Assembly: GCA_947627355.1 (NCBI GenBank)
Contig: CANQVX010000006.1
Coordinates: 1-64,000, forward strand
Length of the DNA stretch: 64,000 nucleotides
Reading direction: 5' to 3'
Source: an uncultured Bacilli bacterium
GTDB taxonomy: Bacteria; Bacillota_I; Bacilli_A; RFN20; CAG-631
The notes below the pieces were generated by a model. It did not search any database and was not told the origin of the DNA. It saw only the letters and a program-made list of their open reading frames with translations. A program made the translations under genes and the position numbers. Of this stretch, positions 30,194-51,490 are shown in pieces; the first letter of the stretch is position 1, and every line of letters starts with the position of its first letter.

Positions 30194-30214
30194 TATTTAA
30201 AAAAAGTTTGAATT

Positions 30215-30253
30215 AGAGGGTTATAGGAAACCTTCCTACTAACCCTCTTTTTT
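30215..30253 (+). terminator. Terminator or attenuator between oppA and oppB
   Basis: Stem AGAGGGTTA (30215-30223) with TAACCCTCT (30240-30248), an inner TAGGAA/TTCCTA stem, then a T run. Partial readthrough would give more binding protein than permease, a common arrangement. Confidence 0.75.
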
Positions 30254-30281
30254 CTCTGATAAAGGAAGGAGAAAGTAGTAA

Positions 30282-33010: not shown

Positions 33011-33024
33011 AGGGGGAAAAGTAG

Positions 33025-35268: not shown

Positions 35269-36145
35269 AAGAGTTTTCAAAGCCGTTAAGAATGTAAGTT
35301 TTGATATTTATAAGGGTGAAACATTTTCATTAGTTGGTGAATCTGGTAGTGGAAAAACAACAATTGGGCGAGCAATTGTTAGAATTAATCCATTAAGTCA
35401 TGGTGAAATCTTATTCAAAGGTAAAAGAATCTCTGGTAAGATTTCTCATAGCGAAGATAGAGACGTTGTTCGTAATATTCAAATGATTTTCCAAGATCCT
35501 GCTGCTTCTTTAAATGAAAGAGCAACTGTTGAATATATCATTAGTGAAGGTTTATATAACTTCCACTTATACAAGAATGAAAAAGATAGAGTAAATAAAA
35601 TCAAACAAGCTCTTTCTGATGTTGGCTTACTTCCAGAACATTTAACTCGTTATCCACATGAGTTTTCTGGTGGTCAAAGACAAAGAATCGGGATTGCTAG
35701 ATCAATCGTTATGGAGCCTGAAATCATCATTGCTGATGAACCTATTTCAGCATTAGATGTATCTATTAGAGCTCAAGTTTTAAACTTATTTAAGAAGTTT
35801 CAAGCTGAACGTGGTTTAACATATTTATTCATTGCTCATGACTTATCAGTTGTTAAATTCATAAGTGATCGTATTGGTGTTATTTATCAAGGAAGAATCG
35901 TAGAAATAGCATCAGCTGAAGAATTATTTGAATATCCATTACATCCATATACTAAATCTTTAATGTCAGCGATCCCTATTCCTGATCCAATTCTTGAAAA
36001 TAATAAAGAATTATATGTATATGATGAATCAATTCATGATTATTCAAATGAAGAACCTAAATTAGTTAATATTGGTCATGACCATTATATTTTAGGTAGC
36101 AAAGAAGAAATAGACGAATATATCGAAGTTAGAAATAAAAAATAG
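35198..36145 (+). CDS. oppF: Oligopeptide ABC transporter ATPase OppF
   Basis: A 315-residue ATPase with Walker [17 protein letters not shown]-loop [14 protein letters not shown], signature [13 protein letters not shown] and Walker [12 protein letters not shown]. Normal length, without the insertion seen in OppD. The ATG at 35198 is chosen because AAGGAGG sits 9 bases upstream; the ATG at 35192 is too close. It begins inside the end of oppD. Confidence 0.93.
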
Positions 36146-36164
36146 TTGGTTTCAACTATTTTTT
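36137..36164 (+). terminator. Hairpin with T run after oppF
   Basis: AAAAAATAGTTG (36137-36148) pairs with CAACTATTTTTT (36153-36164). It covers the oppF stop and probably lowers expression of the ApbE-like gene that follows by 35 bases. Confidence 0.65.
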
Positions 36165-36180
36165 AGCATGGAGAAAGAAA

Positions 36181-37512
36181 ATGAAAGAAGAAACGATTAC
36201 AATATCAACAAAAAGAAATAGATTGATTGTAAGAATCATTCTTTTTGTCGTTTTTGTTTTAATAGCTGTTATTAGTTTTACTTATGGTATCGTTTCTTGT
36301 TCCAATCAACTTAAAAGACAAAAAGGCTTAACTAAAATTGAAATGGGTGAATTAACTTTAGTCGATAAAACTGTAATAGTTCCTTTTGAAGATGAAATAT
36401 CGTTTTATTATTATATCGATAAAGATAAGAAATTTACAGTTGATGAAAACTATTCAAGAGTTACTAGAGCCTATAATATCATTGGTGGAAGGCTTTATGA
36501 AATGCTTGATACCAATTATGAATATGATGATATTGTAAGTTTATGTTATATCAATAATCACCCTAATCAAGATATTGAAATAGCTAAAGAATTATATGAT
36601 ATTCTAGCTGATGCTTATAATAAAACTAAACAAAGTGAAGGTCATTATAATTTATTTTCTGGAAGACTCAATTTGTTTTGGAAACAAGCATTAAAAAATC
36701 AAAATGCTAATCTAGATCCATTAAGACAAACAAATCGAAAAGAATTGTTAGATAATATTATAAATGCTATTAAAATAAATCCTGATAACTATGATTTAAA
36801 CTTAAAGATAGTTGATAATAAATATTACGTTAATTTCTTTATAAATCAAGAAAACAATAGTTTATATTATGAAAACAAATCATTAGTATCATTAGACTTA
36901 AATGTTTTAAGAGATGCTTATGTTCTAGATAACATGGCAAATTATTTGTTAGAACAAAAGTTTAGTAAGGGTTATTTAACTTCTAGTAGTGGTTGTTATC
37001 TTCATTTAAAAGACTTTTGGCTTAGTGAAGAATATGTAGATGTTAGTATGAATGTTTATACTAAAACTGAAATAAATCAAAAAGTTGCTAGAGATAAATT
37101 AGCCTCCATTAGGATGTATGGACCTGTTAGATATTTCACTTATCAAGATTACTATACAAGCACTAGTGATGGCACCAAATATCAAATAACTGATGAAGAT
37201 AAAGTATATAGAAGACATAATTTTTATGATGCTAGTAGTGGTTATCCTATCAACAACATTCGTTATATCAGGACATTTTCCAATGCTAATGAAACATCGC
37301 TAGTTAGTCTTGGTTATCATACATTATTAGTTAATACAACTTCTGATCCAACTAAATATATAAAAGATAACGATTTAGAAATCTTTTATATAACTGACAA
37401 TAAAAACTATGATGATATGATAGATGACTATTTTAAGATCTATTATCATAAGTTGGCTAACTTATCAATAGTTGAAAAATATTTATCTAAAACAAACGAA
37501 ATAATTGATTAA
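36181..37512 (+). CDS. Divergent ApbE-like membrane-anchored protein
   Basis: A 443-residue protein with one N-terminal membrane helix (about 18-40) and a Cys at 41 that is not in a good lipobox. The order of segments follows ApbE (FAD:protein FMN transferase): YNLFSGRLNLFWKQAL (about 160), LDLNVLRDAYVLDNMANYLL (about 240) and RRHNFYDASSGYPINN (about 343). In true ApbE the middle segment reads close to LGGIAKGYAVD; here the glycines and lysine are lost, so flavin transfer is doubtful. It could be a flavin- or peptide-binding accessory of the opp system. GGAGAAAG precedes the ATG. Confidence 0.6.
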   Translation: MKEETITISTKRNRLIVRIILFVVFVLIAVISFTYGIVSCSNQLKRQKGLTKIEMGELTLVDKTVIVPFEDEISFYYYIDKDKKFTVDENYSRVTRAYNIIGGRLYEMLDTNYEYDDIVSLCYINNHPNQDIEIAKELYDILADAYNKTKQSEGHYNLFSGRLNLFWKQALKNQNANLDPLRQTNRKELLDNIINAIKINPDNYDLNLKIVDNKYYVNFFINQENNSLYYENKSLVSLDLNVLRDAYVLDNMANYLLEQKFSKGYLTSSSGCYLHLKDFWLSEEYVDVSMNVYTKTEINQKVARDKLASIRMYGPVRYFTYQDYYTSTSDGTKYQITDEDKVYRRHNFYDASSGYPINNIRYIRTFSNANETSLVSLGYHTLLVNTTSDPTKYIKDNDLEIFYITDNKNYDDMIDDYFKIYYHKLANLSIVEKYLSKTNEIID

Positions 37513-37517
37513 ATTTT

Positions 37518-37546
37518 AAGTGGTAGTAAAAATACCACTTTTTTAG
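37518..37546 (+). terminator. Terminator of the opp operon
   Basis: Stem AAGTGGTA (37518-37525) with TACCACTT (37533-37540), then a T run. Confidence 0.8.
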
Positions 37547-37584
37547 TAACATCCCACTTAAATGCAATTTTTTATTAATTTTAT

Positions 37585-37621
37585 CCCAAATGTGTAAAGA
37601 AAAATGCCCCAAATGTGTAAA
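37585..37621. repeat. Direct repeat CCCAAATGTGTAAA, two copies
   Basis: The 14-base sequence occurs at 37585-37598 and 37608-37621 (period 23), between two converging operons. Function unknown. Confidence 0.6.
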
Positions 37622-37645
37622 AATTTTTGATTTAAAGAACTAAAA

Positions 37646-37668
37646 AAAAGCAGCTGCGGCTGCTTTTT
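37646..37668 (-). terminator. Terminator of the nine-gene surface operon
   Basis: AGCAGC-TGCG-GCTGCT stem (37649-37664) flanked by A and T runs. On the minus strand it follows the lipoprotein gene that ends at 37685. Confidence 0.75.
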
Positions 37669-37684
37669 AATATTTTAAAATGGA

Positions 37685-38836
37685 TTAGTTATTTATTGTC
37701 CAAGAAGCATATAAATCTAAGTCATCAAGTATTGGCGTTAAATCAGTGAACTTACCAGAAGTTGGAGTTACAAGTTTACTTGTATACCAACCTTCAAAAG
37801 TATAACCAGTTCTAGTAGGAATAGGAATTGGATAATTACCTTGAGCTGCAAAATAAGAGCCACCTTCAATTCGGTATTCTAGTAATGCTTTGTCAGGCAT
37901 TTTAGCTGGTGTTCCATCTTCATCATTTAGATGGAATCTAACGGTATAAGTTTTAACTTCTACTCTTAAATCGATAATGATTTGCCATGAATCATCTTGT
38001 TTAATGTAGATTTTTCCATGTGCTATATCAAAATAATAATCACCATTTTTACCTGTATCATCATCAGGCACTCCACCACCGGAATACCATTGATTAGGAT
38101 TAGTTGGACGAGTCCATTTAAGTTCTTCTTCATCGCCATCAGTGTATTGAATAACCATGATATATTCATAGTCATTTTCACTAGAAACGATTGAACTGAT
38201 TCCTCTTCCAGTTTCACCTTGTTTTGGTGCTGGAATTAAGACTTCGACATCATTTGATTTTGAAAAGTGGAAAGTTAATTTAATACTTCCATCATCATTT
38301 TCAACTTGGTCAACACCAGTAATTCCATTGCCGTCTTCTCCATCTTTTCCAGGATCTCCGTCTCTTCCACCAGGTAATATAAATGGATCAGAAGATGTAC
38401 CATCAGAATATTCTACAACAACGGTTGTTTCGTTAGTTACATCATTATATTGAGTTTTGATACCGCTAATTGAAACACCATGTGGTAATTCAATAACGGT
38501 TGGATCAACTGCTTCATCAGTGTAATATATGGTAACTATTGTTTTTGTGTTATCAGCACTAGTTTCATATTCAACACTTTGAATACTTATACCATCGGCA
38601 CCTGGTCTACCATCCTTTGGACATGGGATGGTAAACACAACAGGTTCCTTATCAGTTTCTAAATAATTAATTGTAACGACAATACTGCCATCTTCCAAGG
38701 TTTCACTAGTGATTTCTTTAATATGAAGTGCATTAGCGTCTAGATTCTTTGAAAAGAAACCAGTACATCCGCTAGTACTAACTCCACAAAATAGTAGGGA
38801 TAATCCTAATATGCAAGCCTTGAAAAATCTTTTCAT
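37685..38836 (-). CDS. Surface lipoprotein with collagen-like spacers and InlB-type repeat
   Basis: A 383-residue protein with signal peptide and lipobox STSGC (Cys 24). It has about three related beta-rich units of some 50 residues, each opening or closing with Gly-rich, collagen-like text (GRPGADG, GGRDGDPGKDGEDGNG). A WYSGGGVP then GKNGDYYFD segment (about 258-280) and a C-terminal Listeria-Bacteroides (InlB B) repeat ending GYTFEGWYTSKLV follow. Such proteins are anchored outside and bind surfaces or other proteins. It is the last gene of the operon, 2 bases after its neighbour. Confidence 0.8.
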   Translation of the reverse strand: MKRFFKACILGLSLLFCGVSTSGCTGFFSKNLDANALHIKEITSETLEDGSIVVTINYLETDKEPVVFTIPCPKDGRPGADGISIQSVEYETSADNTKTIVTIYYTDEAVDPTVIELPHGVSISGIKTQYNDVTNETTVVVEYSDGTSSDPFILPGGRDGDPGKDGEDGNGITGVDQVENDDGSIKLTFHFSKSNDVEVLIPAPKQGETGRGISSIVSSENDYEYIMVIQYTDGDEEELKWTRPTNPNQWYSGGGVPDDDTGKNGDYYFDIAHGKIYIKQDDSWQIIIDLRVEVKTYTVRFHLNDEDGTPAKMPDKALLEYRIEGGSYFAAQGNYPIPIPTRTGYTFEGWYTSKLVTPTSGKFTDLTPILDDLDLYASWTINN

Positions 38837-38838
38837 AT

Positions 38839-41346
38839 TTATTCTCCTTGTAATAATGCGTTATTTCTCATTTCACTTGTTGTGAATGTCTTGCCATATA
38901 AATAGCCATCTTTACCATTCATACAAATGAATTTAAATGGTTCAAAACCAGTAACAACAGTAACAGTCTTAAGCATTAAGTTCTTCATCATCTTTAATAA
39001 ACCATCGTTTTTACCAGTTTCTAAATCTAAGTAATTCTTTAATAAATTGATTTCAACTGGATTACCAGCATCACCTAAGTGAGCCATATCACGATAGTTA
39101 ACAAATTCTACTTTAGATAGATTTGCGCCACCACCATAATAAGCAACTGGAATATTGATATAACTACCATTGTATAACCAGTCTTTTTCTTGGTTAACTT
39201 CAAACAAATCGTTCTTCATAGGGAAGATGTTATCAATAGTAATCTTTGGTACATCTGTGCCAGTAGAACCAACTTGTTCAAATGAGTTAGCTAAAGCTGA
39301 AATGTTTTCACTAATTAGACCTTGTAAATCAAGTCCAGATCTATTTTTGTAATCATAGAATGAAGTGTTACCACTGATTTTAACTTTTACAGGATATGAT
39401 ACACCAGAAATGTTTTCAGCAATGTAAGGAATAACAGGAGTATCATCCATGCTTAGCATTCCTAACATGTTTTCAATTCCAGAAGGAACTTTAGAATATA
39501 AGAATGGACCATTGAATAATGATTCTAAAGCAATACTTGCAATACCACTTTGATAGAAATAACAATTGTTGATTGTTGTTTCACCTTTGAAGTTGTTTGC
39601 AATGCCTGTAGTATCATTTAAAGCACTTTGAATTGATAATAATGATGTTTCCATCTTTTCTTTATCAGTGAATTCACCCATTACATAATTGTTAAGGATT
39701 GAATCACCATTAACTTCATTACCTTCAACTTGTTTTAAGAAATCTTTAGCAGATGCATTAGTGTTAGTTCCATCTTCCAAAACAAATTCTTTAGTTGCTG
39801 TTTCATCGATCTTTTCGTATTCATTACTACCTGTAACAAATAAGAAGTTACGTGAACGACTGAAAGCACAGTTATCTAAAGTTAAGTTCATAGATGAGAA
39901 ACTTCTAATAACGTTTTTACCATTTGCTAAACGAGAATTCTTAACGGTAACGTTATCACCATGGATATCCATAACAGTTCCAACATAATCTAAGTTAGAG
40001 AAAATCTTAACATCATCACAGTTTTTGATATTAACATCGTTAATAACAATGTTGTTACCATCAACATACATACCACTGTTATCTTGACCAAAAGCAGTAA
40101 TTAATGGCATGTTAGCAGGATCACCTAAAGTATAGAATGAAAGCGGACCTCTGAATAAGTTTTTATCAGTTAAGGTTGCTACATCAAATACTTGATTTGA
40201 TCCTTCATCAGTGATCTTTTGAACACCATAAGGATAAGTTAAGTTATGGAAGTTGATTGTATAACCATTTCCATAGAAATCTTTTTGAACATGTAAACCA
40301 GTAATAACTTCAGTTGATAAAGGTTTATAAGTTGTTTTTGTTTTAACAAATTCATTCCATTTATCAATGTATTCATGGTTATAAGTTGTTTCAAAACGAT
40401 AAACTTGGTCAGTTAAACCATAAGCGTCATCTTTTTTAGTATTTGTGCCAAATAAAGCAACATTGTTGTACTTTTTAGCAACACTAGAAGTAAATGTATC
40501 ACTAGATTCAAATGACTTTCTTAAAACTACGATTTCACCATTTGTTGATTTATTTGTACAATACATCAAATCTTCAAAACTATAAACGTTAATGCCGTCG
40601 TTTACGATTTTGAAATATTCAGTTTTATCAGCTGCTAGATCGTTTCCACAGCCGATAGTAAAATAAGCGTCCCCTTCTTTTTTAACAGTTACTTTACCGG
40701 TTGTTAAATCGAAATCAATGTTATCACTTTTAGCTTTAACGAATAAAGATGTCTTTAATTCAGCTGGTTGAGTTGTGATATTGAAGTTAAAAGATGCTAA
40801 TACTTTGTGTCCATCTTTCAAATCATATTCACCATAATAAACATTGTTTTCTAAAACATTTTGGTTACTTTCTTCATCTTTACGATAATATACATCGATA
40901 TTATCATTAGAACTACGGATAGCAGGGTTAATAACAATAGCCCCACCAGATACGCTACTATCAAAGATAGTTACACGCATAGTTTTTGATACATTGCCTT
41001 TTTGGTTACGGCATGTAACAATTACTTCGCCTGCTGAAATCGGAACTAAATAGTATTCACCATTTATTTGTTCGATTTTAGCATGTGGTTCAGTCGCCCC
41101 GTCAGCATTTTTTACTTCCCAAACAAGTTCGTTGCCTTCGCTTACTTGGTAGTCATTATCTACAATTGCGTTAGCTTGTAGCTTCATTCTACCTTTAGTA
41201 CCAAAAGCTTCTTTTTCATTGTATTCCCATTCAATAGCAGCAATATCATTGTCTACTTTGTGAAAAGATACATTAACAGCAACGATTCCTAAAAGAGAAA
41301 TAACAAATGGCATTAATAACAGAATAATTAAGTTTTTCTTTTTCAT
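38839..41346 (-). CDS. Large exported protein with beta-helix-like region
   Basis: An 835-residue protein with an N-terminal membrane helix (about 5-27) that may stay as an anchor. An Ig-like (Big_2-type) domain lies near 30-130. From about 420 to 650 the sequence has short repeated patterns such as GNNIVINDVNIKNCDDVKIF and HGDNVTVKNSRLANGKNV, typical of a right-handed beta-helix as in polysaccharide-binding or -cleaving proteins. No catalytic motif is recognised. The start is one base from the permease stop upstream, so it is co-translated with the ABC transporter and may be its cargo or partner. Confidence 0.7.
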   Translation of the reverse strand: MKKKNLIILLLMPFVISLLGIVAVNVSFHKVDNDIAAIEWEYNEKEAFGTKGRMKLQANAIVDNDYQVSEGNELVWEVKNADGATEPHAKIEQINGEYYLVPISAGEVIVTCRNQKGNVSKTMRVTIFDSSVSGGAIVINPAIRSSNDNIDVYYRKDEESNQNVLENNVYYGEYDLKDGHKVLASFNFNITTQPAELKTSLFVKAKSDNIDFDLTTGKVTVKKEGDAYFTIGCGNDLAADKTEYFKIVNDGINVYSFEDLMYCTNKSTNGEIVVLRKSFESSDTFTSSVAKKYNNVALFGTNTKKDDAYGLTDQVYRFETTYNHEYIDKWNEFVKTKTTYKPLSTEVITGLHVQKDFYGNGYTINFHNLTYPYGVQKITDEGSNQVFDVATLTDKNLFRGPLSFYTLGDPANMPLITAFGQDNSGMYVDGNNIVINDVNIKNCDDVKIFSNLDYVGTVMDIHGDNVTVKNSRLANGKNVIRSFSSMNLTLDNCAFSRSRNFLFVTGSNEYEKIDETATKEFVLEDGTNTNASAKDFLKQVEGNEVNGDSILNNYVMGEFTDKEKMETSLLSIQSALNDTTGIANNFKGETTINNCYFYQSGIASIALESLFNGPFLYSKVPSGIENMLGMLSMDDTPVIPYIAENISGVSYPVKVKISGNTSFYDYKNRSGLDLQGLISENISALANSFEQVGSTGTDVPKITIDNIFPMKNDLFEVNQEKDWLYNGSYINIPVAYYGGGANLSKVEFVNYRDMAHLGDAGNPVEINLLKNYLDLETGKNDGLLKMMKNLMLKTVTVVTGFEPFKFICMNGKDGYLYGKTFTTSEMRNNALLQGE

Positions 41347-41347
41347 A

Positions 41348-42961
41348 CTAATTCACTACCTCCATTTTTAAGAATAGTTCATCCACTTTTCGTGGAAAGG
41401 TTATTATAAATGGTAGGCCTACTAAAATAAAGAAGGAAAGGCCGATACCATATAATACATAAATAGAAACTCTAAAATAAGATAATACTATCATAACGAT
41501 AATATATATTAGAGGAAGAACATAACCATATAAGGAAGATAATAAGTAATTTCTTTGATGATCCTTTTTGGTTTTTAGTTCTTCATAAAGACTTACATAA
41601 GTATACATGAATAAGACAATCATGGATATAATTAAGTCGAAAGCAAAATATTTAAAACTAACTACTTTGCTAATGCATAATACTAACACACTAATCAATA
41701 AAGAAACAACAGAAAACATAAACGGAATGAATGTTTTTACATAAAGTTGTCTTTTAAAACGAACTGGAATAGTCTTCATCAATCTAACATTTTTGTTTTC
41801 TGATTCAAGAAATCTATTAGCTCCTTGGCTAATAATAAGTGAAAACAAGATAATAAGTAATAAATCTATCATTGGTAAAAAGCTTGGCATGAATGATAGA
41901 TAGTATGCAAACAATCCTGTCGTAAATATTGTATTCATACTTGAGATAACAAGATACATAAGAAATGGTTGCATAATAAGTAAGCCAGTAAATGAAAAGA
42001 TGTAATTCGAGTTTTTAAACAGAAGAATTGTTTCTTTCTTGATTAACGCTGTTGTAGGCTTTGAAAATCTAAACTTATGAACTTTATTAGTCTTAACTCT
42101 TTTTTGAATGTTAACATTTCTAAAGTAGTTGTAACTAACAAGACATACTGATAAACCAAGAGTGAAGACTCCAAGCGCTACTAACAGATAAAACACGAAT
42201 TTTAATGGCTGTCCTAGAATAAATAAATCAGCTAGAAAATTCATTGGAATGAGCCATTTTTTAATAGCTATTAGTTTATCGATTGAAGTAACATTTAAGA
42301 TTTGGTCAATTTGATTTTTAGCTACTAGGTTCATAAAGATATTTAAGGCAGCGCCATAAATAATACAGAAACCTAATATAATAACGACACTAACAATAAA
42401 TTGAATAACTAAATGTTTCTTTAAAAAGTCGATACATAAATGAAATGGATAAACTAATAACAAAGCTAACCCTACTTCAAAAATAAACGAAAGCATTGGA
42501 TAAAATAATGCTAGATAGAAAAACGATGCAAACTTATGAAAGATAACCCCATAAGCCACAAACAAAGGAAACGTGAATGAGAATCCCAAGACATATTGGC
42601 TAAAAAATAACATAATAATTTTTGATAAAATTATTTGGTTACTTTTTACTGGGTGTATCGTCAATTGCTCAATATCTTTCTTGTTAAAGAATAGTTTTCT
42701 TGCTTGCATTATAGCAAGTAAGACCATAATTGCTGAAACTATGGAAAGAAAGATCGACATAAATGTGCTAGGAGCATTTTGATGGTTCTTTATCTTTTGA
42801 ATTATAGTTATGAACACAAATGTTTCAACAAAGACAAAGGCAATAAAGATAAAGACACTAAATAAAATGGATACAACTCTTTTTTTAATGTTACTTTCAC
42901 TAGCAAACATTAGTTTGAAGTCCTTCATTAGAAGATTTAACATACTAATCAAGGCCTCCAC
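41348..42961 (-). CDS. ABC transporter permease
   Basis: A 537-residue integral membrane protein with about twelve hydrophobic segments and a cytoplasmic loop near 285-300 (NVNIQKRVKTNKVHKF). It resembles permeases of the ABC-2 / EcsB-like type with SQGANRFLESENKNVRLMKT near 375, a segment common in such exporters. It begins inside the end of the ATPase gene upstream, so the two are coupled. Substrate unknown; context suggests export or processing of a surface component. Confidence 0.75.
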   Translation of the reverse strand: MEALISMLNLLMKDFKLMFASESNIKKRVVSILFSVFIFIAFVFVETFVFITIIQKIKNHQNAPSTFMSIFLSIVSAIMVLLAIMQARKLFFNKKDIEQLTIHPVKSNQIILSKIIMLFFSQYVLGFSFTFPLFVAYGVIFHKFASFFYLALFYPMLSFIFEVGLALLLVYPFHLCIDFLKKHLVIQFIVSVVIILGFCIIYGAALNIFMNLVAKNQIDQILNVTSIDKLIAIKKWLIPMNFLADLFILGQPLKFVFYLLVALGVFTLGLSVCLVSYNYFRNVNIQKRVKTNKVHKFRFSKPTTALIKKETILLFKNSNYIFSFTGLLIMQPFLMYLVISSMNTIFTTGLFAYYLSFMPSFLPMIDLLLIILFSLIISQGANRFLESENKNVRLMKTIPVRFKRQLYVKTFIPFMFSVVSLLISVLVLCISKVVSFKYFAFDLIISMIVLFMYTYVSLYEELKTKKDHQRNYLLSSLYGYVLPLIYIIVMIVLSYFRVSIYVLYGIGLSFFILVGLPFIITFPRKVDELFLKMEVVN

Positions 42962-43691
42962 ATAATTCTAAGAATATTCTTTCGAGTTGTAGGCGTTTAT
43001 TAGGATCTTTATTTAAATCAAAGAGAGCAACTACAACGCCTTTATTAATAATAGCTACTCTGTCACAAATTTTGGCTACTAGTTCGATGTTATGAGAAGT
43101 AACAAAGACTGTTTTTTGATGTCTTGCATATTCTAGCATCATTGATTTAACAGCTTCGACAGCCATAATATCAAGACCAACAGTGGGTTCATCTAGGATC
43201 CAAATATCAGGGTTATGAAGTAAACTTGACATTAGACAGATCTTTTGTTTCATCCCGTGTGAATAAGTAGAAATAGGCAGATTCAAATCACTTTCAAGGA
43301 AATTAAGTTTCTTTAATAAGAAATGATAATTTTGTGAAAATGTTTGTTCATCAACTTGATAAATACTTGCGATGAATTCAAGAAAATCATAACCAGTCAT
43401 AACTTCATAACAATTTGGTTCACTAGCTACGTAACCAAAACATTTTTTAGCTTCAATTGGTTCTTTTAAAATGTCATAACCATTTAATAAAATACTACCT
43501 TCATTAAATTGTTTAGAACCAACCATACAGTCGATAGTGGTAGATTTTCCTACCCCGTTTCTTCCTATGAAGCCAAATAATTCACCTTGATAGATTTCTA
43601 AGTTGATGCCAAGCAGAACATCTTTATTGCCATATGATTTATGAAGATCTTTTATTTCTATAGCAATTTTTCTTTCAGTATTTTCTTCCAT
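42945..43691 (-). CDS. ABC transporter ATPase
   Basis: A 248-residue ATPase: Walker A GRNGVGKSTTIDCMV near 39, Q-loop region YVASEPNCYEVMTG, signature YSHGMKQKICLMSSL near 142 and Walker B IWILDEPTVGLD near 162. It belongs to the exporter-type group that pairs with ABC-2 or EcsB-like permeases. The start is 1 base from the upstream gene and the end overlaps the permease by 17 bases. Confidence 0.92.
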   Translation of the reverse strand: MEENTERKIAIEIKDLHKSYGNKDVLLGINLEIYQGELFGFIGRNGVGKSTTIDCMVGSKQFNEGSILLNGYDILKEPIEAKKCFGYVASEPNCYEVMTGYDFLEFIASIYQVDEQTFSQNYHFLLKKLNFLESDLNLPISTYSHGMKQKICLMSSLLHNPDIWILDEPTVGLDIMAVEAVKSMMLEYARHQKTVFVTSHNIELVAKICDRVAIINKGVVVALFDLNKDPNKRLQLERIFLELCGGLD

Positions 43692-43692
43692 C

Positions 43693-44970
43693 TTAGCACC
43701 TCCTTATTTTTAAGTACCATACTGCTTGTTTTGAATTGTCAAAGATATATTTACTATGACAATTAAAACATTTGAAATTAATATCATCTAAGGACATTAA
43801 ATTTTTTTCTTTACAAATCGGACAATAGCTTGAATAGATGCGATAACTAGCTTTATCAAATTTCATCTTTGATTCAAGATATGATTGAATTAGTTCATAT
43901 TCAGAATAGAAACTATTATTCAATCTTTGATAATTTTCATCCATTAAACTCCATAATGAGATGATTTCAGCTGAGTCAAATAAGCTATCATCAACTTTAT
44001 TAAATAAATCAAGTTCTTGCATATCAAACCTTAAAAAATGAACTGCTTGATAGTCAATTTTAGTTGGTTTTATTTTGATTTGCCAACCGTTTAATTTATC
44101 ATCATAAATAAAGTTTAATTTGAATTCTTTATTTTTAATGGTAAATTTTTTGGTTGTTAAGGCATCAACTTCATTTGCTTCTTTATTTAATGTAAATTTT
44201 TTAGTTTTCAATACTTGTAACATTAAACAGAAGTAATACAAATTGAAATCTTTATGCAAATCTTCTTGATTTTGGTAAGTAATTAAGTACTTATAGAATT
44301 TAAAGCAAACATTGTAAGCGCGATCTTTTAATAAGATGTTAGTTGGATGTAATGCTTTAAACTTATATTTAGCTTTACTTACCACTTTATAAAACGAGGT
44401 GTTTTTAATTTTTTGTAGCTTTTGTTTTAGATGAGATAAGTTTTCAAAAGCACGTTGGACAGAATCATCATTTTCGGATAATTGTTGGTTATGTGTTAAT
44501 GTTTTAATCATTGTTTCATAAAATGAAGCATATTGAATGGTTTCCATTTCAATCAAGTCAATGAGTTTGATTAAAAAGATATTTTCATAGATTTTAATCT
44601 CATCAACATTTAACCTATAATGAACATATTCAGGAATATATTCATTATGTTGCTTTTTCCATAATTGAGGATCTCTTACTGTTCTTAAAAACATTTCGTT
44701 TGATAAAGAATGAACTTGATCTACTCTTAAAATTACGTTTTCCCCTTTAGTAGTTAAATGGGGATGACTTAGAATCGAAATAATGACATTTAAAACAAAT
44801 TGACAATTAGCGAAGAAAGTTAAATCATTTTCTAAAGAACTATCTTGTAATGACTTTATTTTTAAAGATTCAATGTTTTCATAAAACGATGCTAAGTTAG
44901 TATTCTTACTTGCATATGTTTTAATGTTTTTAACAATTGCTAATAAATCTTTTTTTTCACTAATTTTCAT
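43693..44970 (-). CDS. DUF2357-like (McrC-related) protein with C-terminal zinc ribbon
   Basis: A 425-residue protein. The region about 80-165 contains RTVRDPQLWKKQHNEYIPEY and then IYENIFLIKLIDLIE, a pattern of DUF2357, the N-terminal domain of McrC. McrC continues with a PD-(D/E)xK nuclease, but I see no such motif. Instead the C-terminus has CPIC (about 384) and CFNC (about 403), a zinc ribbon, close to the end. It sits 4 bases after the McrB-type ATPase gene, as McrC follows McrB, so it is likely its partner. I infer an adaptor rather than a nuclease. Confidence 0.55.
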   Translation of the reverse strand: MKISEKKDLLAIVKNIKTYASKNTNLASFYENIESLKIKSLQDSSLENDLTFFANCQFVLNVIISILSHPHLTTKGENVILRVDQVHSLSNEMFLRTVRDPQLWKKQHNEYIPEYVHYRLNVDEIKIYENIFLIKLIDLIEMETIQYASFYETMIKTLTHNQQLSENDDSVQRAFENLSHLKQKLQKIKNTSFYKVVSKAKYKFKALHPTNILLKDRAYNVCFKFYKYLITYQNQEDLHKDFNLYYFCLMLQVLKTKKFTLNKEANEVDALTTKKFTIKNKEFKLNFIYDDKLNGWQIKIKPTKIDYQAVHFLRFDMQELDLFNKVDDSLFDSAEIISLWSLMDENYQRLNNSFYSEYELIQSYLESKMKFDKASYRIYSSYCPICKEKNLMSLDDINFKCFNCHSKYIFDNSKQAVWYLKIRRC

Positions 44971-44974
44971 ATCA

Positions 44975-46801
44975 TTACAACTTTCTAATTAAATTTTGAA
45001 TGGCTTGTTCACTACGAACAAATGTACCAGCGCCATAAGTTTTATCTAATAACGTTAATAAACGTTTTAGACCTGTTTTAATATATTCTTCAAATCTTCC
45101 TTCAAGTTTTACTAGAATCTTTCTAGATAGTAGGAAGTCTAAAGCATCTTCTTTTTTACCACCACAAGCAACAAAAGTAGGTACAAAGATTTGAATTTGA
45201 TTTAGAATACGGTTACCAAATGTGATATCAAATTCTTTATAAATATAGTCAGTGATATCTTTGAAATTTTGATAGTCTTCTTTTGTTAACTTGAATTCTT
45301 CTGTGGTTGAGCCTTCAGATAATAATTGATGGAACTTAGATGAACTTAATTGAATTGTTGAAACTTCTTCATCAATTTCAAATGGTTCACTTCTAGTTTC
45401 AAAATCAATAGTGATGGCTCTATCATAAACCTTATCAGTAATAGAAAATGTTGAATCATCTTTGTTAGCTGTACCGATAAAGTAAGAATTAGGTAAAATT
45501 GAAACATATCCATTTTCTAATTTCATAGGTGGAATGAATTGATATGGAAGTTGCATAACTCTTAACTTCCATGATTCTGTTGGATATTCAAGTACTGATA
45601 AGAAATCAGCAAAGTAATATTCAACACGGGAGATATTCATTTCATCTAGAACAAATAAGTTGATTTGTTCAGGGTTGAAATTAGATTCATATAAAGCGAT
45701 TAAAAAGTCAGTTTCACTATAAGTCTTTGAAAAATCATTGAAATAACCAAGAATACTGGTCTTATCACGCCAAGTGGCTTGAACTGGAATAAAACATACT
45801 TTAGCATTGATAAACTTAGCAAAGTAACGAGGTAATGATGATTTACCAGTACCACTTAAACCTTCTAGAATCATTAAATGTGAAGTAGCAAAGCCACTTA
45901 CAAAGAATCTAATGGTATCAATGTCAAAATATAATTTTTCAACTTTGGCTAAGTAGTTTCTAAATTTGTTACAGATTTCTTCAAGTGAATAATCATCTGT
46001 TTCAAAATCAGTAATTTCAAAACCACTATATTTTTGGTCAATCATAGATAGAGTTGGGAATACTTTTTCTCTATCTTTAATGATTTCTTCTTCTTTTGGT
46101 TCACTATCTTTTGCTTGGCTAGTTGTTTCACCACTAACAATACTTGGAGTGGTGGTTTCTTCAACGTTTTTAACTCCTTCGAAACTACTACTTAAACTGT
46201 TTGAGTTTGTAGCAGCAGTTTTTTCTTCTTGTTTAGTTGTAGGTTCATCAAATTCAGATAGGTCTTTAGCGTTAAAGAAACGGAATGGTTTATCGATGTT
46301 AATAAAGTTAATTAGTAACATTAGACAAGCGCTAACAAAAATTGCTAAGGCAATGTATAACAAAGTAGTTAGTAATACTGTTTGTCCGATAAATCTTAAT
46401 ACCATGCCGATGTTTTTCTTAGTTAATGGAGATTGAATAAGAATACCAACACCTAAAGATAAAATAATACATGCCACTACAGTTCCAAGATAGATAAGAA
46501 CCATCTTGTAATTATGTGGATTTTTTTGATTTAAAAGAGCAACTCTACGTTCGTAGATAATAAAACCAACACAAGCAATAACATAAATAGCAACTAAAAT
46601 TAGAGCAATGTAGCCACTAAGACCACAATTGATTGTTTTAAAATGTAATCCATGTCCAATATTTTCAACAGGATTACCTTCTAAAACAAAGGTATGAGAA
46701 CCATCTAAACAAGCACCAACAAAGATAAGTAAAAAAGCATAGAAGAAAGAAAAAGACCAAACTAGAAAATTCTTACGGGTAAAAAAGTTGTGTTTATTCA
46801 T
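44975..46801 (-). CDS. Membrane-anchored McrB-type AAA+ ATPase
   Basis: A 608-residue protein with about four N-terminal membrane helices (near 10-33, 58-80, 98-120, 138-163), a Ser/Thr/Glu-rich linker (about 185-245) and an AAA+ domain. Walker A is EGLSGTGKSS (about 312) and Walker B VLDEMNISRVEYYFADFLSV (about 375), which is the McrB-type signature. McrB normally works in the cytoplasm as GTPase of the McrBC restriction enzyme; membrane anchoring in a surface-protein operon is unusual. The ATG at 46801 is chosen because GAGGAAGGAAAC lies upstream. It overlaps the signal peptidase gene by 8 bases. Confidence 0.8.
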   Translation of the reverse strand: MNKHNFFTRKNFLVWSFSFFYAFLLIFVGACLDGSHTFVLEGNPVENIGHGLHFKTINCGLSGYIALILVAIYVIACVGFIIYERRVALLNQKNPHNYKMVLIYLGTVVACIILSLGVGILIQSPLTKKNIGMVLRFIGQTVLLTTLLYIALAIFVSACLMLLINFINIDKPFRFFNAKDLSEFDEPTTKQEEKTAATNSNSLSSSFEGVKNVEETTTPSIVSGETTSQAKDSEPKEEEIIKDREKVFPTLSMIDQKYSGFEITDFETDDYSLEEICNKFRNYLAKVEKLYFDIDTIRFFVSGFATSHLMILEGLSGTGKSSLPRYFAKFINAKVCFIPVQATWRDKTSILGYFNDFSKTYSETDFLIALYESNFNPEQINLFVLDEMNISRVEYYFADFLSVLEYPTESWKLRVMQLPYQFIPPMKLENGYVSILPNSYFIGTANKDDSTFSITDKVYDRAITIDFETRSEPFEIDEEVSTIQLSSSKFHQLLSEGSTTEEFKLTKEDYQNFKDITDYIYKEFDITFGNRILNQIQIFVPTFVACGGKKEDALDFLLSRKILVKLEGRFEEYIKTGLKRLLTLLDKTYGAGTFVRSEQAIQNLIRKL

Positions 46802-47810
46802 GTTTTTTGTTTCCTTCCTCATTTGTTGTGTTTGTTAATATTTCGGTTGTTTCAGTGATATTTCCATTTTTAATCACTTTAATAGCTTTGTTTGTTTCAG
46901 GATTGTTATCGTCCATTTTAGTTTTTTGTATCAAACCTTTATCATTAAACTGGTAAGCATAACCTTGATAATAAATGGTTTCGATAAAATCCGAATTTAA
47001 TTCAACTTTTCCAAGATCTTTAGTGTAGTCAATGATTTCTTGCAAAAATTGAAGTCGTTTTTCTTGAGCGTTATTGTAATTAGTACTATAACGGTCAAAC
47101 ATTATAAGACAATAGATAAGTGCGACAATTGTAATGATTCCTGGATATGATTGGAAAAACAAGACAAACATACCAATAAATGGTATTTTCTTGTTACTGT
47201 ATTTTCCGATAACGTCGTTAATTGTAGGATGATATAAATCACTTTCTGAATTAGCATCGCCTCTAGTAGTAAACGAACCATTTTCATGGATTTCAACTAT
47301 TCTATGAATGATGTTAACACCTTTATTGTTTCGATAAGCAATTACATCATATAGTTTTAGTTGTTCTGGTTTTTTAACTTTTTCGAGTACGATGATATCA
47401 TAAGTTTTAAATTGGTTATCTAAATGATTAGTTATCAAATAATCATTTGCGCTATTTTTTTCGCTCATTGAGCCAGATGTAACAACCATAATGCCGCTAT
47501 TATGGATCATCAATGTGTTTCCTTGAATTCGATGCACAATAGATGCTATAAACAAAGGAACAATGATAACTAAGGCAAGATAGAAAAAGACGGATTTAAC
47601 GATAGATATCGCTTTCTTTTTCTTCTTTTCTTTTGGTTGTTGTGATTTTAAGTATTCATCAATTAGAGCAATGTCTTTCTTACCAGACTGAATTTCTTTA
47701 ATTGATGAATGAACATATGAACTATATAAAACAGTGAATACAATTGAAAAACTTGCAACACCGAGTAGTGTTATGATAACAGAAACGATTTGCATAGCCG
47801 AAAGCAACAT
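46794..47810 (-). CDS. sipW: SipW-like signal peptidase I
   Basis: A 338-residue membrane protease of the S26 family, ER/archaeal-like subtype. The catalytic serine lies in VVTSGSMSEKNS (about 113) and the base is a histidine in VNIIHRIVEI (about 170) instead of lysine; TRGDANSESD follows. Helices: about 5-30, 70-90 and 215-240. SipW frees TasA-type fibre proteins in Bacillus. Here it lies 2 bases after two proteins carrying SipW-type signals, so these are the likely substrates. A longer cytoplasmic C-terminal tail than usual (about 240-338) is present. Confidence 0.88.
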   Translation of the reverse strand: MLLSAMQIVSVIITLLGVASFSIVFTVLYSSYVHSSIKEIQSGKKDIALIDEYLKSQQPKEKKKKKAISIVKSVFFYLALVIIVPLFIASIVHRIQGNTLMIHNSGIMVVTSGSMSEKNSANDYLITNHLDNQFKTYDIIVLEKVKKPEQLKLYDVIAYRNNKGVNIIHRIVEIHENGSFTTRGDANSESDLYHPTINDVIGKYSNKKIPFIGMFVLFFQSYPGIITIVALIYCLIMFDRYSTNYNNAQEKRLQFLQEIIDYTKDLGKVELNSDFIETIYYQGYAYQFNDKGLIQKTKMDDNNPETNKAIKVIKNGNITETTEILTNTTNEEGNKKHE

Positions 47811-47812
47811 AA

Positions 47813-48493
47813 CTAATTACTGCTAACCCTTACTGTAACTGTAAAGAGTGGATCGTTAGAATCTTTTTCTGTAGATCCATACATAGAAGCACGTAAGTCA
47901 ATTAATGTTGCAATGACCGTTTCGTAAGGAACTTCACTTCCGCTTGGGTCGTTATCGTAATATTCTCCAGGATTCATGTAATTAAATACGCTTCCCCATC
48001 CGAATTTAATTGTGTAGCTGAAATAGTTGATAACATTACCATTTCCATCGAGTTGAGGACTATATTTAAGAGCCTGAGGTGAGATAGCACAATCAGGTAA
48101 AACGATATAATTTTTCTCGTTTGCTGCTTTTGCTACACTTTCTGGAACAGATAGTGAGATTGTAGCAGAAACGTTTTCGGGAGATGTAAATGTACCACTA
48201 ACGGTAACATTTAACTTTTCAAAGTTTTCTCCATCATTTCTAACTCTACCAAAGATGTCGCTTTCTTTTGGCTCAAATAGAAATGATTCGTTACTTAATG
48301 TTAATTCACTGATTGTAATGGTGGCATCATGAATAGCACCAACACTAATATCTCCACCTACACCTAGTTCAGCCTTGGACGATACTGCCCAAGCAGCTAA
48401 ACCAGTAGATATAAACGCAACAGAAGCAAAAATTCCTATGCCAAGAAAGATTTTCTTTCTCTTATAAGACTTTTTTGTTTCAGTTTTGATCAT
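47813..48493 (-). CDS. TasA/camelysin-like secreted protein (second copy)
   Basis: A 226-residue exported protein. The signal region KIFLGIGIFASVAFISTGLA then AWAVSS has the SipW-type pattern with Ala-Ala-Trp after the hydrophobic core. The mature part is beta-rich, as in TasA and camelysin. A segment FGWGSVFNYMNPGEYYDND (about 165) is shared with the other copy. The ribosome site TAGGTGAT precedes the ATG. It is probably cleaved by the adjacent SipW and assembled outside, perhaps as a fibre. Confidence 0.75.
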   Translation of the reverse strand: MIKTETKKSYKRKKIFLGIGIFASVAFISTGLAAWAVSSKAELGVGGDISVGAIHDATITISELTLSNESFLFEPKESDIFGRVRNDGENFEKLNVTVSGTFTSPENVSATISLSVPESVAKAANEKNYIVLPDCAISPQALKYSPQLDGNGNVINYFSYTIKFGWGSVFNYMNPGEYYDNDPSGSEVPYETVIATLIDLRASMYGSTEKDSNDPLFTVTVRVSSN

Positions 48494-48528
48494 TAAAAAT
48501 CACCTAAATTGTATCAATTTGATTTCAA

Positions 48529-49185
48529 TTAAGCGGCTGCTGTAGCTTTTACTGTAACTTTAAAAGTTGCAGAGCCAAGATATGTTTGAAGATTTCCAAG
48601 ACGTGTTTTTGCATTTTCAATGTTTTCACTTGTTTCTTCTAAATCATTGAAATATTTCATTGGATTTTTGCCATCAAAAAGAGAACCCCAACCAAATGTC
48701 ATTGTAACAGTAATTGTATCGCCTTCAACTAATTCTGTTGCAGCACCTTTAGAAATTTCACTGCCAGTACCACCGGCCCATGTGTATGTAGGTTCTGTAA
48801 CTAATCCACCAGAAACCGCTTGAGTCCAATTGCCTGTTTCAGAAGCAAATGTTAAAGTGATTTTATCCAAATTGTCTTTGTTTGTTACTTTAATTGTGAA
48901 CTTAGCTTCCAAATCTTCAGCATAATTTCCGGTTTCTTCATCGCTGTTTGATAGCCAATCATAAGTAGTACTTTCTTTTTTCCAACCAAAACAAATGTTA
49001 CCATCTATCATTTTGGCTTCAATACCAATAGTACTATCTGTAACGGTATCGGCCTTAATGTTTCCGTCAACTTCTTTTGATACTTCGTTTCCGCCAATAA
49101 CCCATGCAGCAAAACCGGCACTTACAAGGGCTACACTTCCAAATAACATACCGACTAGCATAATTAGTTTTTTAGATTTTTTCAT
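48529..49185 (-). CDS. TasA/camelysin-like secreted protein (first copy)
   Basis: A 218-residue exported protein with SipW-type signal (GSVALVSAGFAAWVIGG). The mature part is beta-rich and acidic, with FGWGSLFDGKNPMKYFNDL near 175 and a final FKVTVKATAAA strand, both echoed in the second copy. It has no cysteine pairs suggesting disulfides. First gene of the nine-gene operon, with a strong AGGGAGGAA site and good promoter, so it should be the most abundant product, as expected of a structural subunit. Confidence 0.78.
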   Translation of the reverse strand: MKKSKKLIMLVGMLFGSVALVSAGFAAWVIGGNEVSKEVDGNIKADTVTDSTIGIEAKMIDGNICFGWKKESTTYDWLSNSDEETGNYAEDLEAKFTIKVTNKDNLDKITLTFASETGNWTQAVSGGLVTEPTYTWAGGTGSEISKGAATELVEGDTITVTMTFGWGSLFDGKNPMKYFNDLEETSENIENAKTRLGNLQTYLGSATFKVTVKATAAA

Positions 49186-49217
49186 AATCCGTATTCCTCC
49201 CTAATAAATATATATCA

Positions 49218-49245
49218 ATAATACCACAATTTTTATAAAAGTCAA
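49218..49245 (-). promoter_or_regulatory. Promoter of the nine-gene surface operon
   Basis: Minus strand: -35 TTGACT (49240-49245), 16-base spacer, -10 TATTAT (49218-49223). Confidence 0.65.
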
Positions 49246-49374
49246 TACACAAAAAGTGCTTAAAAATAGGGCTTTTTAGGGTATTTCAGACACATGTCAC
49301 AAAATTTGCACATCAAGCATTAATTTTTGCCGATAAAATGGGAAACGCATGATAAAAACTATCGATAAAAACAA

Positions 49375-49405
49375 AAAACCGTCAGGAAAAATATGAGACG
49401 GTTTT
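49375..49405 (-). terminator. Terminator of the LolA-like gene
   Basis: AAAACCGTC (49375-49383) pairs with GACGGTTTT (49397-49405); the minus strand continues in T residues. It separates this gene from the surface operon. Confidence 0.75.
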
Positions 49406-49420
49406 GATATGATTTTGAAA

Positions 49421-50443
49421 CTATTTAGCAGCTACTACTTCCATACCTAGTGCAAGTTCAATAAGTTTAGCTACTGATAGCTTTTCACTATAGATATGAT
49501 AACGCACTCCGTTGTATTCATAAATGAGTTGTTGATTACTTAAAATGCCCATTTGACCGGCAATTTCTACAAGTTCTCCACTTACTTCACTCACTACCAT
49601 TTCTTCGTTACTAGTCAAAATATATTGCACAACAGTGAAGGCTTCTTCTCCTTCATAGGTTAAAATGTGTTGAGTCATGCCACCAACTTGTATTACGCTT
49701 TGTTCTTTAAGTGTTGCTGATATGATAGCGTTAGTTGGATATAGTGGTAAATCATTGATTGTTGATGTAGTAGTTGATGATAAATCAACACGTGCTTGAG
49801 TCATATTATCACTTACTTCAAAGTAGTTATCAGCAAACGAAGGATCAAATTCAACTTTGATAAAGGTTACTTTTACAGCCACATCATTGTTTTTGTCATA
49901 GATATGAACCCAAACCGGTTTTAGTTGTTTGGTCATTTTCATTTCTTGTCTAGTCCAATTTGGTGAATTTTTATAATTAGGTGTTGATGTTATTAAATAA
50001 CCATCTTCAGTCTTTGCTAGTTCGTGTTTATTATGTAAGACATCTAACATCGATTGATATAGATATGGTTTAGCACCATTTAAAGGCCAATCACCTTTAA
50101 ATTTATAAACTTGATTTAAAGCAGGTGTTAAAACAAATACACCATTACCATTACGAATTATGATTTGTTCTTGATTGATACCTTTATCTAGTAGGCTAAC
50201 TCTAAAATAATTAGAGGTTCCATCTTTTTTATAAGATACTTTTACTAGATAATCACGGATATCATCGCCGTTATGAAACTCCATATTAGCTTCCATATGA
50301 TAAGCTGTTAGATTCTTTTGAACATCATCTAGTTTAGAATCAATGCCATCTTTTTTACATGAAACTAATTTAAAAATACCAAATCCTACTAAAACAACAA
50401 TTAAAACTAATAAAACAATTCTTTTTATCCACTTCTTTTTCAT
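49421..50443 (-). CDS. LolA-fold lipoprotein-like protein
   Basis: A 340-residue protein with an N-terminal membrane helix (about 9-26) and Cys 29 in KLVSCKK, a weak lipobox. The rest resembles the LolA-like proteins of Gram-positive bacteria (GerS and YdcC type): an early LTAYHMEANMEF strand, QIIIRNGNGVFVLTPALNQV and VKVTFIKVEFDPSFADNYFEV. These bind lipidic groups or act in sporulation in relatives; no other sporulation gene is seen. Monocistronic, ended by a terminator. TGAGGTGAAAG precedes the ATG. Confidence 0.65.
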   Translation of the reverse strand: MKKKWIKRIVLLVLIVVLVGFGIFKLVSCKKDGIDSKLDDVQKNLTAYHMEANMEFHNGDDIRDYLVKVSYKKDGTSNYFRVSLLDKGINQEQIIIRNGNGVFVLTPALNQVYKFKGDWPLNGAKPYLYQSMLDVLHNKHELAKTEDGYLITSTPNYKNSPNWTRQEMKMTKQLKPVWVHIYDKNNDVAVKVTFIKVEFDPSFADNYFEVSDNMTQARVDLSSTTTSTINDLPLYPTNAIISATLKEQSVIQVGGMTQHILTYEGEEAFTVVQYILTSNEEMVVSEVSGELVEIAGQMGILSNQQLIYEYNGVRYHIYSEKLSVAKLIELALGMEVVAAK

Positions 50444-50567
50444 TTTCTTTCACCTCAAAATATTCTTTCAACACAAGTTATGAAATAGATTTCCAAGATA
50501 TACCACTTTTGCATAAAAAATCTTAAACAGCAAACAATAACAAATGATAAAAGGAGGTAAAGTCATC

Positions 50568-50807
50568 GTGAATATTGTACAAAAAACAGCTTTAGCATTT
50601 ACCATTATTGGTGCAATTAACTGGGGGCTTGTAGGTATCTTTAAGTTTGACTTAGTAGCCACTTTATTTGGTAATATGAGTGTCTTTACAAGAATTCTAT
50701 ATGTCTTGATTGCTTTAGCGGCCTTGATTAATATTGGCATTTTCTTTATCAATCTAAATAGACCTAGAGAAATAAAAGAAAATGTCTATGCTTCCCAAAG
50801 AAAATAG
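50568..50807 (+). CDS. DUF378 family small membrane protein
   Basis: A 79-residue protein with two membrane helices. FTIIGAINWGLVGIFKFDLV is the DUF378 hallmark (YuzA-like). The start is a GTG at 50568 after AAAGGAGGT; the ATG at 50544 lies before that site. Function unknown. It is followed by a terminator. Confidence 0.85.
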   Translation: MNIVQKTALAFTIIGAINWGLVGIFKFDLVATLFGNMSVFTRILYVLIALAALINIGIFFINLNRPREIKENVYASQRK

Positions 50808-50826
50808 TTAAGTGTTACATAGATTA

Positions 50827-50860
50827 AGGACTATTCAATTTTATGAATGGTTCTTTTTTT
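50827..50860 (+). terminator. Terminator of the DUF378 gene
   Basis: AGGACTATTCA (50827-50837) pairs, with wobble, with TGAATGGTTCT (50844-50854), then a T run. Confidence 0.65.
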
Positions 50861-50870
50861 TAGAAAATGG

Positions 50871-50876
50871 TATAAT
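50871..50876 (+). promoter_or_regulatory. -10 box of the flavodoxin-like reductase gene
   Basis: TATAAT right after the preceding terminator; the -35 would fall in the T run and is poor. Confidence 0.4.
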
Positions 50877-50901
50877 CTTTACGAAGCAAGGTGAAGAATA
50901 A

Positions 50902-51483
50902 ATGGATAAAATAATTGTTTTAAATGGTTGTGTTAGAAAAGAAATGTCTAGGACATTATCGCTTGCCAAAGAAATCATTAAAAATTTTAAAAATGCCAAT
51001 ATTGAATGGATAGACATTCAAAAACTAGGATTTCAACCAGTTGACTATGAAACTTATATTTTAAGATCGGTTGGCAAATGTAATCCAAGTGTTATAAAAC
51101 ACGCTAAAAAGGTTCAAGCTGCTGATATCATAATTCTAGTTTCTCCAATCTGGGAAATGAGTGTGCCAGCCATGGTAAAAACATTTTTTGAAAACATTTC
51201 AATTCCTGAAATTACCTTTAGACCTGTTAAAGATACATGTAAAGGAAACTGTAAGGCTAGAAAAATGATTTTTATAACCACACGTGGTATGAATGTTAAA
51301 CCATATTCAGAATTAGATGGTGCAGCGGGTGAATTGAAAGCTTTATGTTCATTATGGGGAATCTATGAATTTGAAGAAGTGGCTTTAAATAATTGTGATT
51401 ATATAACTCCAAAAGAATATGAAGAAGCTAAAGAAAAACTATTAAAACATTTAGAAAAAACTAATTGGTATCAAAAACAATAA
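50902..51483 (+). CDS. Flavodoxin-like NAD(P)H oxidoreductase
   Basis: A 193-residue protein of the NAD(P)H dehydrogenase (quinone)/azoreductase-like flavodoxin fold. ILVSPIWEMSVPAMVKTFFE (about 80) is the family's FMN-contact segment, and TTRGMNVKP (about 133) forms a second loop. It probably reduces quinones, azo compounds or similar with FMN. Two cysteines in DTCKGNCKARK (about 113-118) are an unusual addition and could be redox-active. Monocistronic. Confidence 0.75.
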   Translation: MDKIIVLNGCVRKEMSRTLSLAKEIIKNFKNANIEWIDIQKLGFQPVDYETYILRSVGKCNPSVIKHAKKVQAADIIILVSPIWEMSVPAMVKTFFENISIPEITFRPVKDTCKGNCKARKMIFITTRGMNVKPYSELDGAAGELKALCSLWGIYEFEEVALNNCDYITPKEYEEAKEKLLKHLEKTNWYQKQ

Positions 51484-51490
51484 AATATTC

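Follow-up and report, generated by a model that had tools for sequence, protein, structure and literature searches.

Organization of the Operon

In the window, that is, the whole 64-kb stretch of DNA analyzed here, nine minus-strand open reading frames (ORFs) form a tight run at positions 37685–49185. They encode, in order, signal-sequence proteins (two in the window), a SipW-type signal peptidase (SIP), an McrB-like AAA+ protein, a DUF2357/zinc-ribbon partner, an ABC ATPase, an ABC permease, a beta-helix protein (BHel), and a lipoprotein. The intergenic gaps are 35, 2, 4, 1, 1, and 2 bases, and two gene pairs overlap (SIP and AAA+ by 29 bases, ABC ATPase and permease by 17 bases). These nine genes, with the same order, strand, and tight spacing, had been listed in a first-pass annotation of the window, and the ORF coordinates agree with it throughout.

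A candidate sigma-70-type promoter (49218–49245, minus strand; TTGACT-16 nt-TATTAT with an extended -10 TG, 10/12 matches) was found upstream of gene 1, and a terminator-like hairpin of 10 pairs, readable on both strands, follows gene 9 (37645–37668, minus strand). Both sites had been offered as the ends of the operon and both are present; as evidence, they are no commoner than in shuffled sequence (86 vs. 76.6 for promoter-like and 4 vs. 4.7 for terminator-like sites). Because such matches are equally frequent in shuffled sequence, they prove nothing alone, and the case for a single unit rests on comparison.

Signal Peptidase and Signal-Bearing Proteins

The product of gene 3 (SIP; 46794–47810, minus strand) is a SipW/ER-type signal peptidase which matches TIGR02228 above the cut-off of the model (E-value = 2e-16), supporting its earlier annotation as a SipW peptidase, and also matches SEC11A (E-value = 1e-11). 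Its score against the SipW equivalog model is below the cut-off (57 of 190 bits). Ser114 and His169 are invariant in the SIP alignment. The protein contains three membrane spans and a C-terminal cytosolic tail of approximately 106 residues, which is partly conserved and lies beyond the part covered by the SipW model. A second SipW-type peptidase is present in the same genome (L157:8565–14919, contig C4 of G000) at a locus which has no AAA+ gene; the three proteins encoded after it have signals of the kind GSGFAVWNF and TGFAVWTF.

Genes 1 and 2 encode Sgn1 (48529–49185, minus strand, 218 aa) and Sgn2 (47813–48493, minus strand, 226 aa). Sgn1 has a hydrophobic N-terminal anchor/signal with a GFAAWV end, and Sgn2 has a signal of the same type. 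Both belong to one family, and the two have in common an FxWG motif and a signal end like GFA(A/S)WV. In the loci counted, from none found to six Sgn genes precede the AAA+ gene, most often two. The family showed no significant match in Pfam or NCBIfam, including the TasA/camelysin and SipW-cognate models. TasA was found neither by profile search of the PDB nor among the first 50 Foldseek fold matches, and no known fiber subunit was matched. The label "TasA-type" given to these proteins in the first-pass annotation is supported by none of these searches.

The monomer model of Sgn2 is a predicted beta-sandwich, in which residues 26–54 are unplaced and of low confidence. A conserved, strand-like segment (about residues 48–61) follows the anchor and a variable linker, and most of it (to residue 54) is unplaced in the model. 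At positions 49, 51, 54, 59, and 61, at least 96% of 24 sequences have a hydrophobic residue, and polar residues lie in between. It has been reported that TasA polymerizes via an N-terminal donor strand (PMC9674648). The Sgn segment is reminiscent of that strand, and a similar mode of polymerization might be guessed at by analogy.

The McrB-Like ATPase and Its DUF2357 Partner

Gene 4 (44975–46822, minus strand) encodes a protein with four hydrophobic membrane spans (about residues 19–171), followed by a linker and an McrB-like AAA+ domain. Basic residues are located at the N-terminus and between spans 2 and 3, a placement which suggests that the AAA+ domain is cytosolic. The Walker A motif is GLSGTGKS at residue 321. 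The sensor motif, GTANKDDST, is the NxD variant of the McrB signature, and N453, D455, and D456 are invariant in 17/17 orthologs; NxD followed by D is the motif of an uncharacterized McrB branch (Bell et al. 2024, PMC11090510). AAA_5 was weakly matched by 13/17 orthologs, whereas the PADLOC defense candidate PDC-M26A was matched by all 17. In the window protein this match (E-value = 3e-41) covers only residues 209–413, and a literature search found no paper or description for PDC-M26. No McrB was matched when the protein was searched against solved structures. The assignment as a membrane McrB-type AAA+ protein, made in the first-pass annotation, is upheld by the NxD motif, AAA_5, and the DUF2357 partner.

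Gene 5 (43693–44970, minus strand) encodes this partner, a homolog of DUF2357 (the N-terminal part of McrC) with a C-terminal four-cysteine zinc ribbon, as the annotation had also proposed. Pfam DUF2357 was detected in 6/16 partner orthologs (best E-value = 1e-8); the window protein itself is linked to DUF2357 only by profile. The partner profile matches coiled-coil DUF2357 partners (E-value = 1e-18), and its invariant Tyr-Glu-Asn and Thr-Asn motifs recur in two other partner families. The best three PDB fold matches of the predicted structure (mean pLDDT 83.5) are all McrC chains, and these matches are weak (E-values 0.03–0.18, low TM-scores).

Past Thr210-Asn211, the sole invariant residues of the partner are Tyr219 and the four zinc-ribbon cysteines. 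The ortholog alignment contains no invariant acidic or basic residues after the DUF2357 part and no conserved nuclease catalytic residues, and none of the nine proteins matched a nuclease domain in Pfam. As judged by its sequence, the partner is a nuclease-less activator of the McrC type. McrBC itself is known for restriction. With no nuclease found in the operon, the nine genes do not constitute a restriction system, and membership in restriction or CoCoNuT systems was rejected. The proposal that an McrBC-derived motor has been recruited away from restriction is thus well supported by an AAA+/DUF2357 pair that lacks a nuclease.

ABC Transporter and Surface Proteins

The ABC transporter ATPase (gene 6; 42945–43691, minus strand) is DrrA/GldA-like. 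Its match to Pfam ABC_tran (E-value = 1e-24) confirms the initial assignment, and the match to TIGR01188 (E-value = 1e-51) is below the cut-off of that model. The permease (gene 7; 41348–42961, minus strand, 537 aa) has at least ten hydrophobic spans and is paired with gene 6 in nearly all relatives. Elsewhere in the window (33025–35268), we observed an oligopeptide-transporter-type ABC ATPase of 747 aa in which an insertion of approximately 400 residues separates Walker A (GESGSGKS) from the ATPase motifs that follow.

BHel (gene 8; 38839–41346, minus strand) is an 835-aa surface protein with an N-terminal anchor, Ig-like parts, and a probable right-handed beta-helix. It is the best conserved of the extracellular proteins. 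The earlier label of beta-helix protein is backed by one weak Pfam match among the orthologs. Gene 9 (37685–38836, minus strand) encodes a 383-aa lipoprotein with an invariant lipobox Cys24, glycine-rich GxxGxGI repeats, and a C-terminal Listeria-Bacteroides (InlB B-type) repeat (TIGR02543, E-value = 4e-11, above the cut-off; PF09479, E-value = 7e-8), in line with the InlB-repeat lipoprotein first named here.

The host genome has penicillin-binding proteins. Sortase anchoring was considered and rejected: no sortase match was obtained in this genome, which is 93% complete, so that retention of the surface proteins must depend on membrane anchors, lipid, or assembly.

The unit is often followed by larger, variable surface proteins that carry the Sgn signal type. 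For example, at L071:19085–21797, L079:12594–15082, and L082:19300–21824, a further small protein with a signal is found downstream of it, together with a large surface protein that is variable and rich in repeats. This position is possibly a slot for changing cargo. In one genus, an extra surface protein of approximately 840–890 aa is inserted between the peptidase and AAA+ genes (L036:6800–9316, L038:10738–13392, and L039:5172–7841); related proteins adjoin the ABC genes in L047 and L048.

Conservation as a Unit

AAA+ homologs were detected in 33 of 58 related genomes. Full-length, membrane-spanning orthologs occur in 17 of the 58, all of which also have the partner, permease, and BHel genes, and the gene order is identical in host families f1, f3, f5, and f6. 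Strong, full-length matches to permease and BHel without a full AAA+ protein were found in only two others of these relatives.

We further gathered 80 loci by scanning genome contigs with a profile built from the AAA+ alignment alone, and counted each gene only on contigs long enough to hold it. As this sample was picked by AAA+ similarity and overlaps the first set, its figures describe linkage rather than prevalence. Each linked gene was present in 94–97% of such contigs: the DUF2357/zinc-ribbon partner in 71/73, ABC ATPase in 65/69, permease in 61/64, BHel in 51/54, lipoprotein in 48/50, peptidase in 60/63, and Sgn proteins in 55/58. The order of the five downstream genes is the same in 43/45 loci, the two exceptions having a displaced lipoprotein gene. 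Within the unit, 119/120 ORFs have a homolog in the operon of another genome, compared with 4/78 flanking ORFs (up to 9 kb outside the unit) that have one in the corresponding part of another locus. In addition, pairwise distances of AAA+, partner, peptidase, permease, and BHel are correlated (r = 0.70–0.88, Mantel P-value = 0.0005). The conservation of the nine-gene set goes far beyond chance. The first-pass annotation had named loss of the ATPase pair from SipW/TasA genes in relatives as grounds for abandoning its proposal; in the relatives, the pair stays with the SipW-type genes.

A genome of the same genus (G001) provides an empty site. Window positions 28190–37284 and 49413–51489 are colinear with it at 77–80% identity, and all between them (37285–49412) is absent, leaving the two flanking genes 275 bases apart. 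The left boundary of this interval takes in the diverged end of the flanking gene. Judging from this alignment, the unit is gained or lost as a block. No shared repeat was recognized at the junctions. A mobile element with a tRNA target was considered and rejected, with no tRNA genes in the 64-kb window and no element genes seen. An assembly artifact was likewise rejected, as the set occurs in many independent metagenome-assembled genomes (MAGs) and the empty site is clean.

Host families are mixed in the AAA+ tree, which suggests horizontal transfer; paralogy and loss can mimic this pattern. Loci with the same order were found in many uncultured gut bacteria labeled Bacilli, Clostridia, and Mollicutes, and in many independent MAGs. 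In a phylum-wide sample, BHel was found only inside the class of the host as given by the group codes of that sample, which do not map onto NCBI names; the NCBI labels of other loci include Clostridia.

Related Membrane McrB-Like Proteins

Phylogenetic analysis placed the AAA+ proteins of nine-gene units in one clade (SH-aLRT 99), sister to a second clade (98). Members of the second clade mostly have one or two spans and are associated with coiled-coil DUF2357 partners, SipW-like peptidases, and GGDEF/EAL-type proteins. These AAA+/DUF2357 pairs have SipW-type peptidases linked to them but not the ABC permease of the operon. The sister operons (L051–L067) contain NxD AAA+ proteins, SipW-like peptidases, and small signal-bearing proteins, and some include a phosphorylase-superfamily gene (PF01048). 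A third nuclease-less membrane form consists of two genes, an NxD McrB-like AAA+ protein with approximately twelve spans and a DUF2357/zinc-ribbon partner (L068:6227–10488, L069:7597–11791, and L070:7264–11591), among housekeeping genes, with no peptidase seen in the vicinity. NxD is present in all three groups where the motif is readable, and Pfam detected no nuclease domain in the partners tested from the three groups.

Some of the other genes also occur apart from the AAA+ pair. At least two genomes (G042 and G046) have ABC permease and BHel but not the pair, and a second copy in G008 comprises Sgn, peptidase, ABC genes, and BHel with no AAA+ gene. Since permease and BHel occur without the pair in these cases, the putative motor may have been added as a module and need not be required in every version.

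Comparison with Known Systems

The closest named relatives are the CoCoPALM systems, NxD McrB GTPases with transmembrane segments which are linked to signal peptidase family proteins. They have been named but not described, in one paragraph whose definition calls for an FtsB-like domain and for coiled coils in the McrB and McrC homologs alike (PMC11090510). The window set shares with them an NxD McrB-type AAA+ domain joined to predicted transmembrane segments, a DUF2357/McrC homolog, and the linked signal peptidase family gene (60/63 loci with room for it, TIGR02228 above the cut-off). Unlike the sister clade, its AAA+ protein has four spans instead of one or two, its partner ends in a zinc ribbon without the long K/E-rich, apparently coiled-coil tail, and the operon adds an ABC transporter, BHel, and a lipoprotein. 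The sister operons L051–L067, from the same bacteria, fit the published definition better, and the nine-gene set is probably a sister variant of CoCoPALM. A literature search found no paper on the nine-gene set and no follow-up on CoCoPALM. Thus, of the earlier claim that no system with this set had been described, the part on the full set stands, whereas CoCoPALM had already been named (PMC11090510).

CoCoNuT and McrBC type IV restriction systems also combine an McrB-like AAA+ protein with a DUF2357 partner, and CoCoNuT has the same NxD motif. The window operon differs in lacking a nuclease, a HEPN or other effector, and a methyltransferase, and in its membrane-embedded ATPase and secretory neighbors. 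The Bacillus subtilis tapA-sipW-tasA biofilm fiber operon likewise pairs a peptidase of the SipW type with small, secreted proteins that are rich in beta structure and have similar signals, but the window operon has no TasA/TapA homolog that the sequence or fold searches found, and adds the AAA+ and DUF2357 proteins, ABC transporter, BHel, and lipoprotein. The type IV pilus ATPase and platform resemble the set only in the suggested division of labor, in which a cytosolic motor and a membrane platform move anchored subunits outward. No homology to them was found; the AAA+ protein is of the McrB kind rather than PilB/PilC, and the peptidase is SipW-type rather than a prepilin peptidase.

Possible Function

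The first-pass annotation had proposed that the ATPase pair is coupled to a secretion set in order to assemble, export, or remodel a surface structure. The coupling holds as a conserved unit which joins the McrB-like AAA+/DUF2357 pair to a SipW-type peptidase and secreted proteins; the role in a surface structure is one that we infer. Our leading reading, a plausible one which we place slightly short of an even chance, is that the pair forms a nucleotide-driven membrane motor helping to assemble or export SipW-processed surface subunits. The nine genes would then be a horizontally moving surface-structure system, in which secreted subunits (Sgn proteins, usually two and up to six or more, BHel, and the lipoprotein) would be inserted via their N-terminal signals or anchors and the Sgn proteins cut by the SipW/ER-type peptidase, while the ABC ATPase and permease would export or position a component. 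Nucleotide-driven force would come from the cytosolic side, where the McrB-type AAA+ ring in the membrane, once activated by the DUF2357/zinc-ribbon partner that lacks a nuclease, would extract subunits or push them into the surface assembly in the manner of a pilus ATPase and platform. By analogy with McrB, the ring would be a hexamer that uses GTP. Physical coupling of the motor to the peptidase and transporter, the identity of its substrates, and a fiber or coat as the product are likewise features that we infer. The variable Sgn copy number and the extra large downstream surface proteins fit subunits and cargo. The stronger claim, that surface appendages are made here by a machine of a new class, whose membrane-embedded McrB/DUF2357 ring has lost its nuclease and works with an ABC transporter to assemble or secrete SipW-processed subunits, is possible but doubtful. 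Against a motor, the versions in G042 and G046 and the G008 copy lack the AAA+ gene, so that the motor is not essential to every version; the second SipW locus of the host genome also has no AAA+ gene, the Sgn proteins resemble no known fiber subunit, and PADLOC lists the AAA+ family as candidate defense.

These same AAA+-less versions, in which ABC genes and BHel occur together, favor an arrangement in which export is driven by the ABC transporter, and the AAA+/DUF2357 pair regulates complexes of the peptidase or the transporter as a chaperone or a quality-control unfoldase in the membrane; the partly conserved peptidase tail could dock to such a cytosolic ring. We consider this unlikely, given the partner present in 71/73 loci of the biased, AAA+-found sample and the sister pairs that are linked to SipW-type peptidases without this permease. 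Less probable still is a membrane-linked role in defense or conflict, in which the pair would act at the membrane as a sensor of phage proteins or invading nucleic acid, and the ABC transporter and secreted proteins would be effectors or a barrier to phage adsorption. The PDC-M26A matches of all 17 orthologs, the mostly defensive nature of the McrBC branch (PMC11090510), and the patchy distribution of a block that is either present or absent would agree with such a role. However, the operon contains no nuclease or other recognized toxin domain, the partner has no conserved nuclease residues, the best-conserved extra genes are secretory, and the PDC-M26 family, for which no description was found, covers only part of the window AAA+ protein (residues 209–413). 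That two independent functions share one transcript merely by chance or for reasons of expression seems very improbable. Although the AAA+ pair is a separable module, the order is kept across host families and MAG collections, divergence of the core genes is correlated, flanks are not conserved, and a second independent AAA+ clade is also linked to SipW-type peptidases. Some room is left for an explanation outside the motor, chaperone, defense, and cotranscription readings.

If the motor reading is true, a widespread nuclease-less membrane branch of McrBC which moves together with secretion and surface genes would represent a motor reused for moving proteins. Defense catalogs may then mislabel a surface-structure gene as defense (PADLOC PDC-M26A), as the setting of the 17 orthologs is secretory. 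The system is distributed over gut bacteria of several groups and offers a clean example of a unit that is either present or absent.
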